NCBI GenBank assembly: GCA_021205455.1
Contig: JAJPXL010000084.1
Location: 12,913 to 45,322 of the forward strand
DNA: 32,410 nucleotides
Direction of reading: 5' to 3'
From: Clostridiales bacterium
GTDB taxonomy: Bacteria > Bacillota > Clostridia > Oscillospirales > Oscillospiraceae
The translations under genes and the position numbers were made by a program. Under the pieces are notes generated by a model that was given only the letters and a program-made list of their open reading frames with translations, searched no databases and was not told the origin of the DNA. Positions 7,433 to 32,286 of this stretch are shown here, piece after piece; positions within the stretch are counted from its first letter, which is position 1, and each line of letters begins with the position of its first letter.

Positions 7433-7642
7433 TTACTGCACGCCCTTGACTTCATAGCCCGCGTCGGTGACGGCGGCGGTCAGCACCTCGTCCGCCACGG
7501 GGACGTCCAGGATGACGGTGGCGGTCTTGGCCTCCAGATCGACCACTGCGGAGGTCACACCCGCCACGGCGGACAGGGCCTTCTCCACGTTGGCCTTGCA
7601 GTGGGCGCACATCATGCCCTCTACAGTCAGTACCTTTGTCAT
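7433..7642 (-). CDS. Possible internally initiated CopZ-like copper chaperone
   Basis: The last 69 codons of copA begin with ATG (codon 879, at 7642), preceded by GAGGTGA (7648-7654) at good spacing. The encoded piece [20 protein letters not shown] is a complete, self-sufficient HMA domain of CopZ size. It could be made as a separate Cu(I) carrier from the same mRNA, as well as being the C-terminal domain of the ATPase. This is inference from the ribosome site and domain boundary; the site may have survived from a gene fusion and be unused. Confidence 0.35.
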
Positions 7643-10276
7643 TGTGTTCACCTCGTTTTCTTTCCTATCTGATTCACTCCTGGGAGTGGGGACAGTACAT
7701 TCACCCGGCTCATAGCCGGCCTCCGTCACGGCGGCGGCCAGTGCCTCATCTGCCACGGTCGCGTTCAGGGTGATGGTGACGCTGTGGGCCTCCAGGTCGG
7801 CTTTGGCGGAGCGCACCTCCGGCAGCGCGGTCAGCGCCTCCTCCACCCGGCGGGTGCAGTGCTGGCACATCATGCCGTTGACGGCAAGCACACGGGTCTC
7901 CCCGTCATTCTGGGGCGCGGACAGGGGACAGGCTGGGGGTTCCTCCGGCGCTGCGGGCGCGGCAGTTGACAGGGCAGCGGCGGGGGCGCTGTGCTTCGGC
8001 CTGAAGAACCGCAGCCGCAGGGCGTTGGACACCACGGAGACGGAGCTTAAACTCATGGCCGCCGCGCCGAAGATGGGGCTGAGCTGCCAGCCCAGGATGG
8101 GGTAGAACACCCCGGCGGCCAGGGGGATGCCTATGCAGTTGTAGCAAAAGGCCCAGAACAGGTCCTGCTTGATGTTGCGGATGGTGGCCCGGCTCAGCTC
8201 CATGGCGGTGACGGCGTCAAACAGGCTGCTCTTCATCAGCACCACGTCGGCGGATTCCAGGGCAACGTCGGTGCCCGCGCCGATGGCGATGCCCACGTCC
8301 GCCCGGGTCAGGGCGGGGGCGTCGTTGATGCCGTCCCCCACCATGGCCACCTTGCGGCCCTCCTGCTGGAGGGCGGAGATCTTTGCTTCCTTCTCAGTGG
8401 GCAGCACTCCGGCGATGAAGGAGGAGATGCCCAGGGTTTTCGCCACGGCGGCGGCGGTGCGCTGATTGTCGCCGGTGAGCATGACCACGTCCACCCCCAA
8501 ATCACGGAAGGCGTCCACGGCGGCCTTGCTGTCGCTGCGGGGCACGTCCGCCACGGCGATGATGCCCAGGAGCTGGCCGTCGGCGGCGAAGTACAGCGGG
8601 GTCTTTCCGGCCTCCGCCAGGACGTCTCCCGCCCCGGCTGGGACGGCGACGCCCTCCGCCTCCATCAGCGCCTGATTGCCCGCCAGGTAGCGCTTGCCCT
8701 CCAGGGTAGCCCGCAGGCCCCGCCCCGGCTGGGCGGAGAAGTCCTCTACCGGCAGCGTTGCGACGCCCCGCTCTTTGGCGGCCCGGACGATGGCCTCCGC
8801 CAGGGGATGCTCCGACGGGGCCTCCAGCGAGGCGGCCAGCTGGAGCAGCCGCGCCTCAGAGACGCCCTCCGCCGGGACCAGGTCGGTGACTACAGGCTTG
8901 CCCTCGGTCAGGGTACCGGTTTTGTCCACCACCACGGTGTTGACGTCGTGAAGAGATTCCAGCGCCTCGGCGGATTTGAACAGTACGCCCAGCTCCGCCC
9001 CCTTGCCAGTGCCCACCATGATGGCCACTGGGGTGGCCAGCCCCAGGGCGCAGGGGCAGGAGATCACCAGCACGGCCACGGCGGAGGTCAGCGCGCTGGA
9101 GACGCTGCCGGAAACCAGCATCCACACCACGAAGGTGACCAGGGAGATGCACAGCACCACCGGCACGAACACCCCCGCCACCTTGTCGGCCAGCTTGGCG
9201 ATGGGGGCCTTGCTGGCGGAGGCGTCCTCTACCAGATGAATGATCTGGGACAGGGTGGTGTCCTCCCCCACCCGGGTGGCCCGGAAGGTGAAGGAGCCGT
9301 TCCTGTTGATGGTGGCGGCGGAGACGCTGTCGCCAACGGCCTTCTCCACGGGGATGGACTCCCCGGTCAGGGCGCTCTCGTCCACGGCGGAGGCGCCGGT
9401 CAGCACTACGCCGTCCACCGGGATGGCCTCGCCGGGGCGCACCAGCAGGGTGTCCCCCGGCTGCACCTCCTCCACCGGGACGACGCGCTCCGCGCCGTCC
9501 TCCAGCCGGGTGGCGGTCTTGGGAGCCAGGTCCATCAGCCGCTCCATGGCCTGGCTGGTCTTGCCCTTGCTGCGGGTCTCCAGGAACTTCCCTACTGTCA
9601 CCAGCGTCAGAATCATCCCCACGCTCTCCAGATAGAGGTGGTTCATGTGGTACTCCTCCGCCAGCTCCAAATCGCCGTGGCCCAGCGCCCAGCTGATGAC
9701 GAACATGGAGTAGAGGGAATACAGCAGGGAGGCGGCGGCCCCCAAGGCCACCAGCGAGTCCATGTTGGGGGCGCGCCGGAACAGGGCAGGGAAGCCCACC
9801 TTAAAATACTTGTCATTGACGTACAGGATGGGCAGCACCAGCACGAACTGGAGCAGGGCGTAGGTCATGCTGTTCTCCACCCCGGTCAGGAAGGCGGGCA
9901 GCGGCGCGCCGAACATATGCCCCATACAGACGTAGAACAGGGGCACCAGGAAGCAGACGGAGATGATGAGACGGGTCTTCATCCACCGCAGCTCCTTGTT
10001 CATCTCCTCCTTCCTGGCCTGGGCCTCCGCCTGGGCGGAGGAAGCGGCCCGGCCGCTCTGCTCCTGCCCGGCCACGGTGGCCCGATAGCCTGCCTTCTCC
10101 ACGGCGGCGCAGATGTCCTGGGGGGTCAGCGCGTCCGGGTCGTAGGTGACCACCATCGTCCCGGCCAGCAGGTTCACCGGGGCCTCCTGCACCCCCTCCA
10201 GGCCGCCCACCGCCTTCTCCACATGGGACTGGCAGGCGGCGCAGCTCATGCCGAATACGTTGAACTTTTGCTTCAT
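7433..10276 (-). CDS. copA: Copper(I)-exporting P1B-type ATPase with N- and C-terminal HMA domains
   Basis: 947 residues. Order: N-terminal metal-binding domain with GMSCAAC (about residues 9-15), eight-helix membrane domain, actuator TGES (304-307), copper-transport CPC (407-409), phosphorylation DKTGT (D451), nucleotide-binding SEHP (H490), hinge GDGINDAP (about 647-654), and helix signatures YN and MSLSS that specify Cu(I). After a Pro/Ala-rich linker come two further HMA domains, GMMCQHC (about 801-807) and GMMCAHC (about 887-893). It pumps Cu(I) out of the cytoplasm. It follows csoR by 27 bases, with AAAGGAAC before its ATG. CopA normally has its metal-binding domains only at the N-terminus; the last domain looks like a fused CopZ chaperone. 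Confidence 0.95.
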
Positions 10277-28175: not shown

Positions 28176-29063
28176 CTATTTCGCTTCACAGTATTCCTCC
28201 AGGGGAAGCTCCAATGCCTCCGATGGATGTTCTTCCCCCAGCAGCCGGTCCGCCATGACCATGTAGTGCTGATACAGCACGCCGAACCGGTGGCGGTACC
28301 TGGGCTTCCAGGGCTTGGCCTTGCCGCAGAAGTGGAGAATCGCGGTGTACCGCATCACCCACTCCACAGAGGACTCCCCGCCGCTGCGCAGATAGTAATC
28401 CCGGAACTTGCGGGCGTCGTAGTTCCAGAGGTAATCGTCCAGCTCCAGCGTCTCCCTGCCGTACAGGCAGTTCAGAATGTCCTGGTCGGGCAGCACCAGG
28501 TCGCTGGCGTGGGCCTGGGCGTACCGGAACACGTCCTCCGGCTGAACCTTCTTCCGGCACTCGTCCAGGTCAATGACCAGCACGCCGGAGTTGTAGTACT
28601 TGTGCTCCGTGCCGAGGCGGATGTTGTTCACCGTGTTGCTCAGCTCCGTCTTGTGGGTGTGGGCCGCCGCCGCAAACATCTTGCCGTGCAAATCCAGCTC
28701 CCACAGGGGGCGGACAGGGTTGATGACCAGCAGGTCCGGGTCCAGGTACAGCACCCGCTTCAGCGCCTGGGGCAGCAGCTGCCCCGCCAGCAGGCGGTAA
28801 TACATCTCCTGGGGATAGCGCCTGGACACAGGCGCCTCCGCGAACAGCGCCTCATCCACCACCACCGGGTGCAGGCGGTAGTGCAGCGGGCGAATCTGCT
28901 CCTCCAGCCGTTCCAGCGCCTCCTCCGGGATGGCGCGGTGGAGCAGGTACAGCTCCACCGGCTGCTCTGGGTCCGTCAGGTACAGCGAGGTCAGCAGCAC
29001 CCGCAGCCTGGGCAGGTAGGCCTCATCCAGCGTGACCAGGATATTCATCGATGATGGTTCCAT
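28176..29063 (-). CDS. Family 8 glycosyltransferase
   Basis: 295 residues. The N-terminus MNILVTLDEAYLPRLRVLLTS, the metal-binding DxD in VLYLDPDLLV (about 105-114), YYNSGVLVIDL, LPDQDILN and the C-terminal HFCGKAKPW are the GT8 motifs. Such enzymes add glucose or galactose from UDP-sugars to lipopolysaccharide, teichoic or capsular glycans. Start 29063 is chosen for GGAGGG five bases away; an ATG five codons later lacks a site. It lies 14 bases after the P-type-ATPase-like gene, as one operon. Confidence 0.92.
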   Translation of the reverse strand: MEPSSMNILVTLDEAYLPRLRVLLTSLYLTDPEQPVELYLLHRAIPEEALERLEEQIRPLHYRLHPVVVDEALFAEAPVSRRYPQEMYYRLLAGQLLPQALKRVLYLDPDLLVINPVRPLWELDLHGKMFAAAAHTHKTELSNTVNNIRLGTEHKYYNSGVLVIDLDECRKKVQPEDVFRYAQAHASDLVLPDQDILNCLYGRETLELDDYLWNYDARKFRDYYLRSGGESSVEWVMRYTAILHFCGKAKPWKPRYRHRFGVLYQHYMVMADRLLGEEHPSEALELPLEEYCEAK

Positions 29064-29077
29064 CCGTTCCCTCCGGT

Positions 29078-31348
29078 CTAAAATTTGTCCGCGAATCCGG
29101 CAATCAGCAGCTCCGGTACCAGCCACAGCACCAGGAAGGTCAGCAGATTGACCACTGTCAGCGACGCGAAGGCCAGCTGACTGGTCAGATAGGTGGCCAC
29201 CAGGATGCCCACCACCGAGGCCAGCAGGGCCAGGATGGTGTTGATGCGCACCAGGCTGCACAGCCGCCGTCCGCCCACCACGGCGTCGGAGAAGGCGCCC
29301 AGGCCCTCCCGCAGCAGCAGCGCGCCCAGCACCTCGTTATGGGTCTGGCCGGGCTGGGACAGCTCCCGCCGCCGCCTGATGGGGGGATACTCCATCCGGT
29401 CAGCGGGCAGGTCGTACCGCTGCAAGGTGCCGGGGGTGATGTTGAAGTCCCGGGTGGCCAGCACCGGCGATACGCCGGAGCGAATCAGCTCCCGCAGGGC
29501 GGGCTTCACATAGTGGGAGGGGGTGTATTCCAGCTTGAACATTCCGACGATCTGCCGGTTGATGGCGCAGTACACGGCGGAGCGCACCCGATAGCCCTCC
29601 AGCGGGATGCGGTTTACCGTCATAAAGCCGTCTGTGCCCACCAGCACGTTGTCGTCCCGGATGGTGGCGCTGAGGCCGCCGGCCTCGCTGCATTCCAGGT
29701 CCTTCACCGTGCGGCAGAAGCCGCCCTGCATTTTCAGCAGGTCTTCAAACAGGCCCGCCAGGCCGCTGCCCGCGCTGCGGAGCATGGAGGCGGTGCAGGC
29801 CACCACCCGCTCCTCGGACACGTCGCCAAAATACCGCACGTCGGTGATGCTGACGCAGCCCGCCGGGAACAGATCCTCGTCCTTAATCAAAATATTGGCC
29901 TGGCCGGACATACTCTCTGCGCCGTCCCAGCCCGCCAGTACCGCGCCGAAGCGGTCCAGGCGGCGGGTCACCCGCAGTAGCGGCTGCCCGTAGACCAGGA
30001 GGGAGGACATCGGTGACGCCGCCACCAGCACCGTGGATAGGCACCACAGCAGCAGGCCCCGCTCCCCGCTGACCGCCGTCGCAACGACGGCCAGCACCAC
30101 CGCCACGATCAGCAGGATGGGGACGATGATGCGGCAGAGCCGGGTGGAGCCGTCCATGCTCTGAATCTGGCTGCCGAAGCCACTGGTGGAGCCGGCCTCC
30201 TTGTCAAAGGCGGGGGTGCCGTCCCACTTGTCCTCATCCAGCGTCACGCGGTAGGGCTCCGCCGTGCCGGAGACGGTGCGGCAGGAGATGTAAAGGGCCT
30301 TCTTCCGGTCATAAGCGCCCCACATGGCGCCAAACAGGCTGAGGGCAGCCAGCCCCGCCAGCGGCAGAGGCCCGTCCCGTCCCAGCACAGCGTAGAAGAC
30401 GCCGTCCAGCAGCGTGGCGAGGACCGCCGCCGCCGTCATGGTGTGCAGGCCGGTGCAGCGCCGCACCGGGGCGCTGAGCCCCAGCCAGAGCACGTCCAGC
30501 CCCAGCACGGCGGCCAGCGCCAGCCCCCAGGTCAGGCAGCCCGCCAGCACCCTTGGGTTTTCCGCCAGCACAGCGGGCAGCGGCCAGCCCAGCTCCTGGG
30601 CCAGGGCCAGCGCCACCAGCAGAGCGGCGATGACCAGCACCGCCCAAGTCCGCCGCCCCAGGGAGTCCAGCCCGGTGCGGTACCGCTGGGCCAAATCCTC
30701 CACGTTCAGGTCGGGGGCCGCCTCCCGCTGCTTTGCCCGTCTGGGCTTCTGGGGCTTTGCAGAGGGCGTTTCCTCCTGGTCCGTGCCGGGGGTGTAGCGC
30801 TCTTCCAGGCGGGACTGCTCGTCCTGCTTCTCGCTGCGGAACATATTGTCCGCGAAGTCGTTGGCCTTGTCCTGCACCGCGTTCAGCGTCTGCTTGATGG
30901 GGTGCAGCGGGTCGGCGGGCATGGAGAGGACGTTGTCCGTGTCCTCCGTCTCATCCGGCTCCGTCGGCTGCTTCTTCCGATGGAACAGCCGCTGCCAGAA
31001 GCTGGGCTGCGCCTCCGGCTCGATGGCCTCGGAGACCTGCTGCTGAATGAACCGCCGCGTCTCGTCCGGGTCCACAGGTTCCCCCGGGCTGTCCGGCTCG
31101 CTCATCTGCTGGGGGGAGTCGTCCTGCAGCCGCTTCTCGATCTGCTCCATCCGGTTCTCGGTAGCCTCCGGGGTGACGGCGTCCGTATCGGCGTACTCCC
31201 GGATAATATCATCCAGCTCATAGGCCGTCTCATTGGGCATCGCACCGGTGTGCATCAGCTTCTCCACATCGTTCAGCTCATCCACGGTGTTCCATTTGGT
31301 CTGTTCCAGCTCCTCTTCGGGAGTTTCCGTCTCATGCTGTTCCTTCAT
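29078..31348 (-). CDS. P-type-ATPase-like membrane protein lacking catalytic motifs
   Basis: 756 residues. Residues 1-225 are acidic and probably disordered. Eight predicted helices follow (about 234-252, 268-292, 303-322, 328-346, 404-427, 429-452, 703-722, 726-752) in 4+2+2 order, as in P1B ATPases. Between helices 6 and 7 lie VLVGTDGFM (568-576), QIVGMFKLEYTP (599-610) and ALRELIRSGVSPVLATRDFN (617-636), recalling a P-type nucleotide/phosphorylation domain. However, DKTGT is replaced by IKDEDLFP (488-495), TGD by TRD, CPC by ASPMSS, the TGE actuator is reduced, and GDGxND is absent. Probably a pseudoenzyme or a distinct family; the start has a weak ribosome site. In operon with GT8. Confidence 0.7.
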   Translation of the reverse strand: MKEQHETETPEEELEQTKWNTVDELNDVEKLMHTGAMPNETAYELDDIIREYADTDAVTPEATENRMEQIEKRLQDDSPQQMSEPDSPGEPVDPDETRRFIQQQVSEAIEPEAQPSFWQRLFHRKKQPTEPDETEDTDNVLSMPADPLHPIKQTLNAVQDKANDFADNMFRSEKQDEQSRLEERYTPGTDQEETPSAKPQKPRRAKQREAAPDLNVEDLAQRYRTGLDSLGRRTWAVLVIAALLVALALAQELGWPLPAVLAENPRVLAGCLTWGLALAAVLGLDVLWLGLSAPVRRCTGLHTMTAAAVLATLLDGVFYAVLGRDGPLPLAGLAALSLFGAMWGAYDRKKALYISCRTVSGTAEPYRVTLDEDKWDGTPAFDKEAGSTSGFGSQIQSMDGSTRLCRIIVPILLIVAVVLAVVATAVSGERGLLLWCLSTVLVAASPMSSLLVYGQPLLRVTRRLDRFGAVLAGWDGAESMSGQANILIKDEDLFPAGCVSITDVRYFGDVSEERVVACTASMLRSAGSGLAGLFEDLLKMQGGFCRTVKDLECSEAGGLSATIRDDNVLVGTDGFMTVNRIPLEGYRVRSAVYCAINRQIVGMFKLEYTPSHYVKPALRELIRSGVSPVLATRDFNITPGTLQRYDLPADRMEYPPIRRRRELSQPGQTHNEVLGALLLREGLGAFSDAVVGGRRLCSLVRINTILALLASVVGILVATYLTSQLAFASLTVVNLLTFLVLWLVPELLIAGFADKF

Positions 31349-31407: not shown

Positions 31408-32286
31408 TCAGCCGAGGCGCTGGCGCACCGCCTCATACAGCAGGATGGCCGCCGACGCCGATGCATTCAAAGAATTGACCTGCCCCTTCATGGGAATACT
31501 GACCGTAAAATCGCAGCACTCCCGCACAAGGCGGTTCATCCCGAAGCCCTCGCTGCCGATGACGATGGCCGCCGCCCCTTTGAAGTCCGCCTGATAGAGG
31601 GGCGTCTCCCCGTCAGCTTCCGCGCCAAAAATCCAGACGCCCTTCCGCTTCAGGTCGTTCAGCGTGGCCGTCAGGTTGGGGACCCGGGCCACCGGCACAT
31701 AGCTGACCGCTCCAGCGCTGGTCTTGGCCACCACCGCCGTCAGCCCGGCGCTCCGGCGCTTGGGGATGATGACGCCGTGGGCGCCGGCGCATTCCGCCGT
31801 CCGAATCACCGCGCCCAGGTTGTGGGGGTCGGACAGCTCGTCGCACACCACGATTAGGGGCTTCTCCCCCTTCTCCTCCGCGGCCCGGAGGATGTCGTCC
31901 ACGTCCGCATACTCCCGCACAGCGGCCAGGGCGATGACCCCCTGGTGGGAATGGGTGCGGGACATGGCGTCCAGCTTCCGGCGGTCGGCGTCCACCACCA
32001 CCGCGCCGCTCTCCCTGGCTTTGGCGGTAATATAGCTCAGGGTGGAGTCCGTCTCCCCCTTGGCGACATAAACCTTATCCAGCGGTACCCCGGCCCGCAG
32101 GGCCTCCATCACCGCGTTGCGCCCTTCAATGACGCCGTCCGCCTCCGCCTCGGAGGGCTGACGCCTGGGCTGCCCGTCCCGCCGCTCCGGCGCGCTGCGG
32201 CCGCGGTCCTCGCGCTGCTTGCGGGGCGGGCGATGCTCTGCCGCCCGCTCGTCCCGCGCCCGGGACGGGCGCTTTTCCTCGTTCAT
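31408..32286 (-). CDS. rlmB: 23S rRNA Gm2251 2'-O-methyltransferase (SpoU/TrmH family)
   Basis: 292 residues. A basic low-complexity head (about 1-52) is followed by the substrate-binding domain (VIEGRNAVMEALRAG) and the knotted SPOUT domain: motif 1 SDPHNLGAVIRTAECAGAHG, motif 2 IVIGSEGFGM, motif 3 IPMKGQVNSLNASASAAI. RlmB methylates the P-loop of 23S rRNA; family members also modify tRNA. ATG 32286 follows AAAGGAAG. It lies 59 bases upstream of the ATPase-like gene. Confidence 0.94.
   Translation of the reverse strand: MNEEKRPSRARDERAAEHRPPRKQREDRGRSAPERRDGQPRRQPSEAEADGVIEGRNAVMEALRAGVPLDKVYVAKGETDSTLSYITAKARESGAVVVDADRRKLDAMSRTHSHQGVIALAAVREYADVDDILRAAEEKGEKPLIVVCDELSDPHNLGAVIRTAECAGAHGVIIPKRRSAGLTAVVAKTSAGAVSYVPVARVPNLTATLNDLKRKGVWIFGAEADGETPLYQADFKGAAAIVIGSEGFGMNRLVRECCDFTVSIPMKGQVNSLNASASAAILLYEAVRQRLG

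Follow-up and report, generated by a model that had tools for sequence, protein, structure and literature searches.

P-type ATPases are pumps defined by their catalytic motifs, and to our knowledge no conserved family keeps the P-type architecture yet drops all catalysis. A search of the open-access literature, whose coverage is incomplete, found no report of a conserved P-type-ATPase pseudoenzyme. Outside this group pseudoenzymes are familiar: pseudokinases and iRhom-type dead proteases carry an inherited fold without catalysis and are kept under selection. Here, we describe a gene from a 32,410-nucleotide stretch of Clostridiales DNA (the whole stretch analysed, hereafter the window) whose product is very probably a pseudoenzyme derived from the heavy-metal (P1B) pumps. 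With pseudoenzymes in general it shares a catalysis-free inherited fold under selection, and our data suggest that an old pump lost its enzymatic function and became a membrane protein with a widely retained job.

The layout of the protein and its neighbours is given in Table 1. Hydropathy averaged over 134 homologues places helix centres near residues 244, 278, 313, 337, 417 and 442, followed by a double span at 704–746. This bears out the eight hydrophobic helices in 4+2+2 order that a preliminary description had read from the single sequence. Within the home family the core is constant at about 540–550 aa, while the tail ranges from 74 to 886 aa among homologues. The tail is of low complexity here, and across the family it is rich in Asp and Glu (D+E 0.24; K+R 0.13; disorder-promoting residues 0.63), so that its acidity, noted earlier, holds generally; its disorder is predicted from composition alone. 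No Pfam domain was found in six of the longest tails. The extremes are represented by two loci with tails of almost 900 aa (L149 and L150) and by family f9, including L141 (G227; 545 aa), in which the tail is entirely lost and the proteins measure 545–554 aa.

Table 1. Features of the pseudo-ATPase gene and its neighbours (window coordinates)
Feature	Position	Strand	Basis or remark
Pseudo-P1B-ATPase, 756 aa	29078..31348	(-)	real ORF and homology
N-terminal tail, variable and acidic, residues 1-210	30719..31348	(-)	tail length varies, core length constant
Conserved short peptide LDDIIREY, residues 45-52	31193..31216	(-)	common family form [SV][LIV][DE][DE]ILAE[FY]
Membrane helices 1-4 (equivalents of MA, MB, M1, M2), residues 235-347	30308..30646	(-)	hydropathy and profile alignment
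A (actuator) domain remnant, residues 348-404, TGE loop deleted	30137..30307	(-)	alignment gap; ~57 aa
Membrane helices 5-6 (M3, M4), CPC replaced by S445-P446-M447	29984..30136	(-)	hydropathy and alignment
Cytoplasmic P/N headpiece, residues 456-695	29264..29983	(-)	AlphaFold model matching CopA P and N domains, HMA6 N domain
Former DKTGT site, K489-D490-E491-D492-L493-F494-P495-A496-G497	29858..29884	(-)	profile alignment and column counts
Former TGD motif, T632-R633-D634-F635-N636	29441..29455	(-)	profile alignment and column counts
Membrane helices 7-8 (M5, M6) with conserved Trp742; preceding GDGxND segment deleted	29099..29260	(-)	hydropathy and alignment
rlmB (23S rRNA 2'-O-methyltransferase), conserved operon partner	31408..32286	(-)	TIGR00186, E 9e-70
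GT8 glycosyltransferase, downstream neighbour, not conserved, outside the system	28176..29063	(-)	neighbourhood comparison

As a single sequence, the 756-aa protein has no significant Pfam match and only a weak one to the NCBIfam heavy-metal P-type ATPase model TIGR01525 (E 3.5e-5, residues 403–634); neither collection holds a dedicated family for it. A family profile built from 48 members retrieved only P1B ATPases from the PDB (HMA4, 3.5e-12; LpCopA, 8e-10). When 25 true P1B pumps were compared with the order-wide alignment by hhalign, 520 columns aligned colinearly at a probability of 99.95% (E 5.5e-38). This comparison set included a control pump from the same window (7433–10276, minus strand). 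This 947-aa protein is a true P1B ATPase of the copper type; it carries three HMA stretches, and its DKTGT, CPC and GDGxND motifs are intact. Structural modelling agrees with the profiles. The AlphaFold model of the headpiece, the only usable one (mean pLDDT 62.6; 70–90 in the centre), has LpCopA, CopB, HMA4 and CopA as its top structural matches, and it matches the P and N domains of CopA, in keeping with the earlier view that the soluble region resembles them. A model of the whole core from 11 sequences was poor (pLDDT 46), yet Foldseek still returned the HMA6 N domain (TM 0.76). The family thus has the overall P1B fold and helix order, sharing with CopA/ZntA/HMA-type pumps (TIGR01525, TIGR01511) the colinear helices MA, MB and M1–M6, the N domain and half of the P domain, and finding its best PDB and Foldseek matches among them. 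Judged from these alignments, the resemblance is one of homology and not of chance. A tree splits the P1B pumps from the pseudo-ATPase family with a support of 1.0; its midpoint root falls inside the family, which leaves the root unplaced.

Where the family departs from these pumps is in everything needed for the catalytic cycle: the phosphorylated Asp, TGE, CPC, HP and GDGxND are all missing, the A domain is reduced to a remnant, and an acidic, peptide-bearing tail stands where P1B pumps have HMA domains. Lys489 aligns to the phosphorylated Asp, so that the first Asp of KDEDLFP stands, as a correction, one residue after that position. Asp occupies the Lys489 column in 18 of the 134 homologues, never within DKTGT. 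None of the 134 aligned cores contains DKTG[TS], TGE[SP] or GDGxND, and the DKTG strings that were detected in homologues lie in long N-terminal tails, outside the aligned core. The TGE loop falls in the deleted part of the A domain, as the Mg2+-binding hinge of GDGxND does in the deleted segment before helix 7. In place of the CPC/SPC/TPC metal site of M4, the second position is variable across the family and the third is mostly F, L or V. HP has become S528-G529, in a His column dominated by S, C and G, with His not among the common residues. By profile alignment, Arg replaces the central Gly of TGD as well as the Lys of motif III. The absences first noted in this one gene therefore extend to the whole set, no family member with an intact DKTGT was found, and the proposal of a pseudo-ATPase is strongly supported. 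The family has instead acquired a signature of its own, with F494 in 128, P495 in 123, G558 in 133, G571 in 134, D634 in 129 and W742 in 125 of the 134 homologues, and G473 also among its fixed residues. Tyr608, present in 127 of 134, takes the place of a headpiece Asp that is near-invariant in pumps (D457 in the fragment of the window's own CopA); this codon (29525–29527) thus records a fixed Asp-to-Tyr substitution. From the motif losses, ATP hydrolysis by this protein appears very unlikely, and we infer that it would no longer form a phosphoenzyme, hydrolyse ATP or export metal.

Purifying selection and broad retention accompany this loss of catalytic motifs. Against five close relatives, dN/dS is 0.13–0.24 in the core and 0.17–0.34 in the tail. 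Of 200 genomes of the home family, 183 carry the gene, including 127 of the 129 that are near-complete. Across the order, 228 of 247 genomes carry it at E<=1e-25, almost always in single copy. An order-wide profile adds 13 of the 19 missed genomes, and G221, where rlmB is followed at a contig end by a truncated N-terminus carrying the family peptide, adds one more. This brings the total to 242 of 247 genomes and all 22 sampled families, in single copy. About 600 sampled genomes outside the order contained none. A sample of 293 genomes from the class gave 14 matches, every one of them within the order. Among 348 genomes drawn from the phylum, order members matched the full profile at 1.9e-112 or better, and matches outside the order were genuine pumps only, typically covering columns 196–473 (best 8e-39). 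The host order is presumably Oscillospirales of GTDB. The pseudo-ATPase reading is much broader, being order-wide, than a single-sequence description could show. Since nearly every member of this major order of gut-associated Clostridia carries the protein, locked to rlmB, its gene is a candidate marker for the order. Sporulation was excluded as the reason for retention because, of the 16 order genomes that lack SpoIVA, 15 still carry the protein; genomes without the protein mostly have SpoIVA. At one locus (L247, G218:C38), from the one genome that represents family f20 in the sample, a single in-frame TGA separates open stretches of 376 and 425 aa; it may reflect an error in sequencing, a gene copy that is broken, or stop-codon recoding.

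The second constant of the family is its neighbour. In 88 of the 89 loci with flanking sequence, which come from 22 families, the gene immediately upstream is rlmB, on the same strand; the single exception is a contig end. The two genes are 59 bp apart in the window and typically tens of bases apart elsewhere, which suggests one transcription unit, and they are probably expressed together. With its curated cut-off, rlmB is detected in 241 of 247 genomes, which leaves six without it. Five of these six (G131, G249, G270, G281 and G302) are also the only genomes that lack the pseudo-ATPase; in the remaining one (G289), the reading frame of the pseudo-ATPase begins at a contig end. Absence of both adjacent genes may partly reflect missing contigs. 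Two of these genomes, G249 and G302, which are 97% and 95% complete, belong to one genus (g143), and the absence of both genes from both points to joint loss of the two-gene unit, which we consider likely in this genus.

That the gene is a decaying relic of a metal pump, as the loss of every catalytic motif might suggest, has a negligible chance of being correct: the low dN/dS (0.13–0.34), reading frames that are open in almost all genomes, single-copy occurrence throughout 22 families and a conserved signature of its own all contradict it, and selection together with distribution rules out a decayed copy. Another explanation is a working enzyme of a different kind, a HAD-type phosphatase. The P domain is of the Rossmann lineage of HAD-superfamily phosphatases. 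D490 and D492, beginning one residue after the lost phospho-Asp, could form a new DxD pair of nucleophile and acid-base residue; T632 and D634 of motif II are often kept, as is Arg for the motif III Lys. Of the stretch IKDEDLFP, however, which the preliminary description had singled out, it is F494 and P495 that are conserved, and both Asp residues occur together in only 97 of 134 homologues (72%; D492 alone in 111). In 13 homologues Asp is absent from both 489 and 490, families f21 and f22 have Ala or Ser at 490, LFP sits where G-T/V is usual, and the motif IV segment with its acidic Mg2+ ligands is deleted. Column counts therefore do not support an active phosphatase across the order, and we regard a working HAD-type enzyme as highly improbable.

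Two further explanations were considered. If the helix bundle were the working part, the protein might be a passive channel, a carrier or a lipid-handling protein for which ATP is no longer needed. All eight helices are retained and core length is constant; in the home family, conserved residues within or close to helices include W742, P456 and D315. Against this, the metal-binding CPC has been lost, its Pro persisting in only 69 of 134 homologues; the headpiece, which a mere pore would not need, is among the better conserved parts; and the neighbour is an rRNA methyltransferase, so that we think this explanation unlikely. Alternatively, the protein could regulate the cell's true P1B pumps, either by joining them in a hetero-oligomer as a dead paralogue or by sensing metal. 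Such pumps do occur in 247 of 248 order genomes, and one lies 19 kb away in the window. Pumps are nevertheless so nearly universal that co-occurrence is uninformative, and in G311, a genome that is 97% complete, the protein is present although no P1B pump reaches E<=1e-60. No linkage to pump genes is seen in the conserved neighbourhoods, and the loss of the CPC site again counts against a metal-related role, making pump regulation rather improbable.

Taken as a whole, the explanation that we favour, with moderate confidence, is a pseudo-P1B-ATPase fixed throughout the order that acts as a non-catalytic membrane scaffold or regulator and is probably expressed with rlmB. The role assigned to it is the tentative part, to which we would give slightly less than an even chance. 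A regulatory or scaffolding role had been proposed for the single gene; order-wide fixation and strict linkage to rlmB make it more likely, and it stays a matter of interpretation. Under this explanation, the ancestor would have been a heavy-metal (P1B) ATPase whose non-catalytic form became fixed in the common ancestor of the order. The helix bundle would tether the P/N headpiece, inherited from the pump, to the cytoplasmic side of the membrane, and headpiece and N-terminal peptide would bind cytoplasmic partners there. Such a non-cycling, membrane-anchored headpiece with a tail peptide is the most economical mechanism, and we consider it the most likely. The peptide, of the form LxxILxE[FY], is found close to the N-terminus in 69 of 88 homologues, compared with 1.1% of shuffled tails. 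It is better conserved than any other part of the tail, the rest of which cannot be aligned, and this makes it a likely, if putative, binding motif. As a counterpoint, one family lacks the tail, which is thus dispensable there and not needed everywhere. A DNA pattern scan of 12 genomes for the peptide as a widespread genome-wide tag gave 15 matches against 3 in the reversed control, several of them the pseudo-ATPase gene itself, and this idea was rejected.

The link to rlmB points to ribosome biogenesis, although operon membership is no proof of function. In a more specific version of the favoured explanation, the protein would be a receptor or scaffold in the membrane, devoid of catalysis, whose function is tied to rlmB and to ribosome biogenesis; it would, for example, place or sense ribosome-related factors at the membrane through the LxxILxE[FY] peptide. 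This version seems to us a long shot. The family offers a tractable case for asking what use a transporter fold has after pumping stops, and why it resides in an rRNA-modification operon. The suggestion of an envelope role, drawn from the adjoining GT8 gene, did not hold: this adjacency is confined to a same-species cluster of 8 loci whose proteins are at least 87% identical and is absent at the other loci, the conserved neighbour being rlmB upstream. Elsewhere in the neighbourhood, a second EF-G gene (FusA-like, ~690 aa) lies downstream of the pseudo-ATPase in 40 of the 89 loci (L045–L074 and L125–L128 among them), and in about 31 loci ftsH stands divergently upstream of rlmB.
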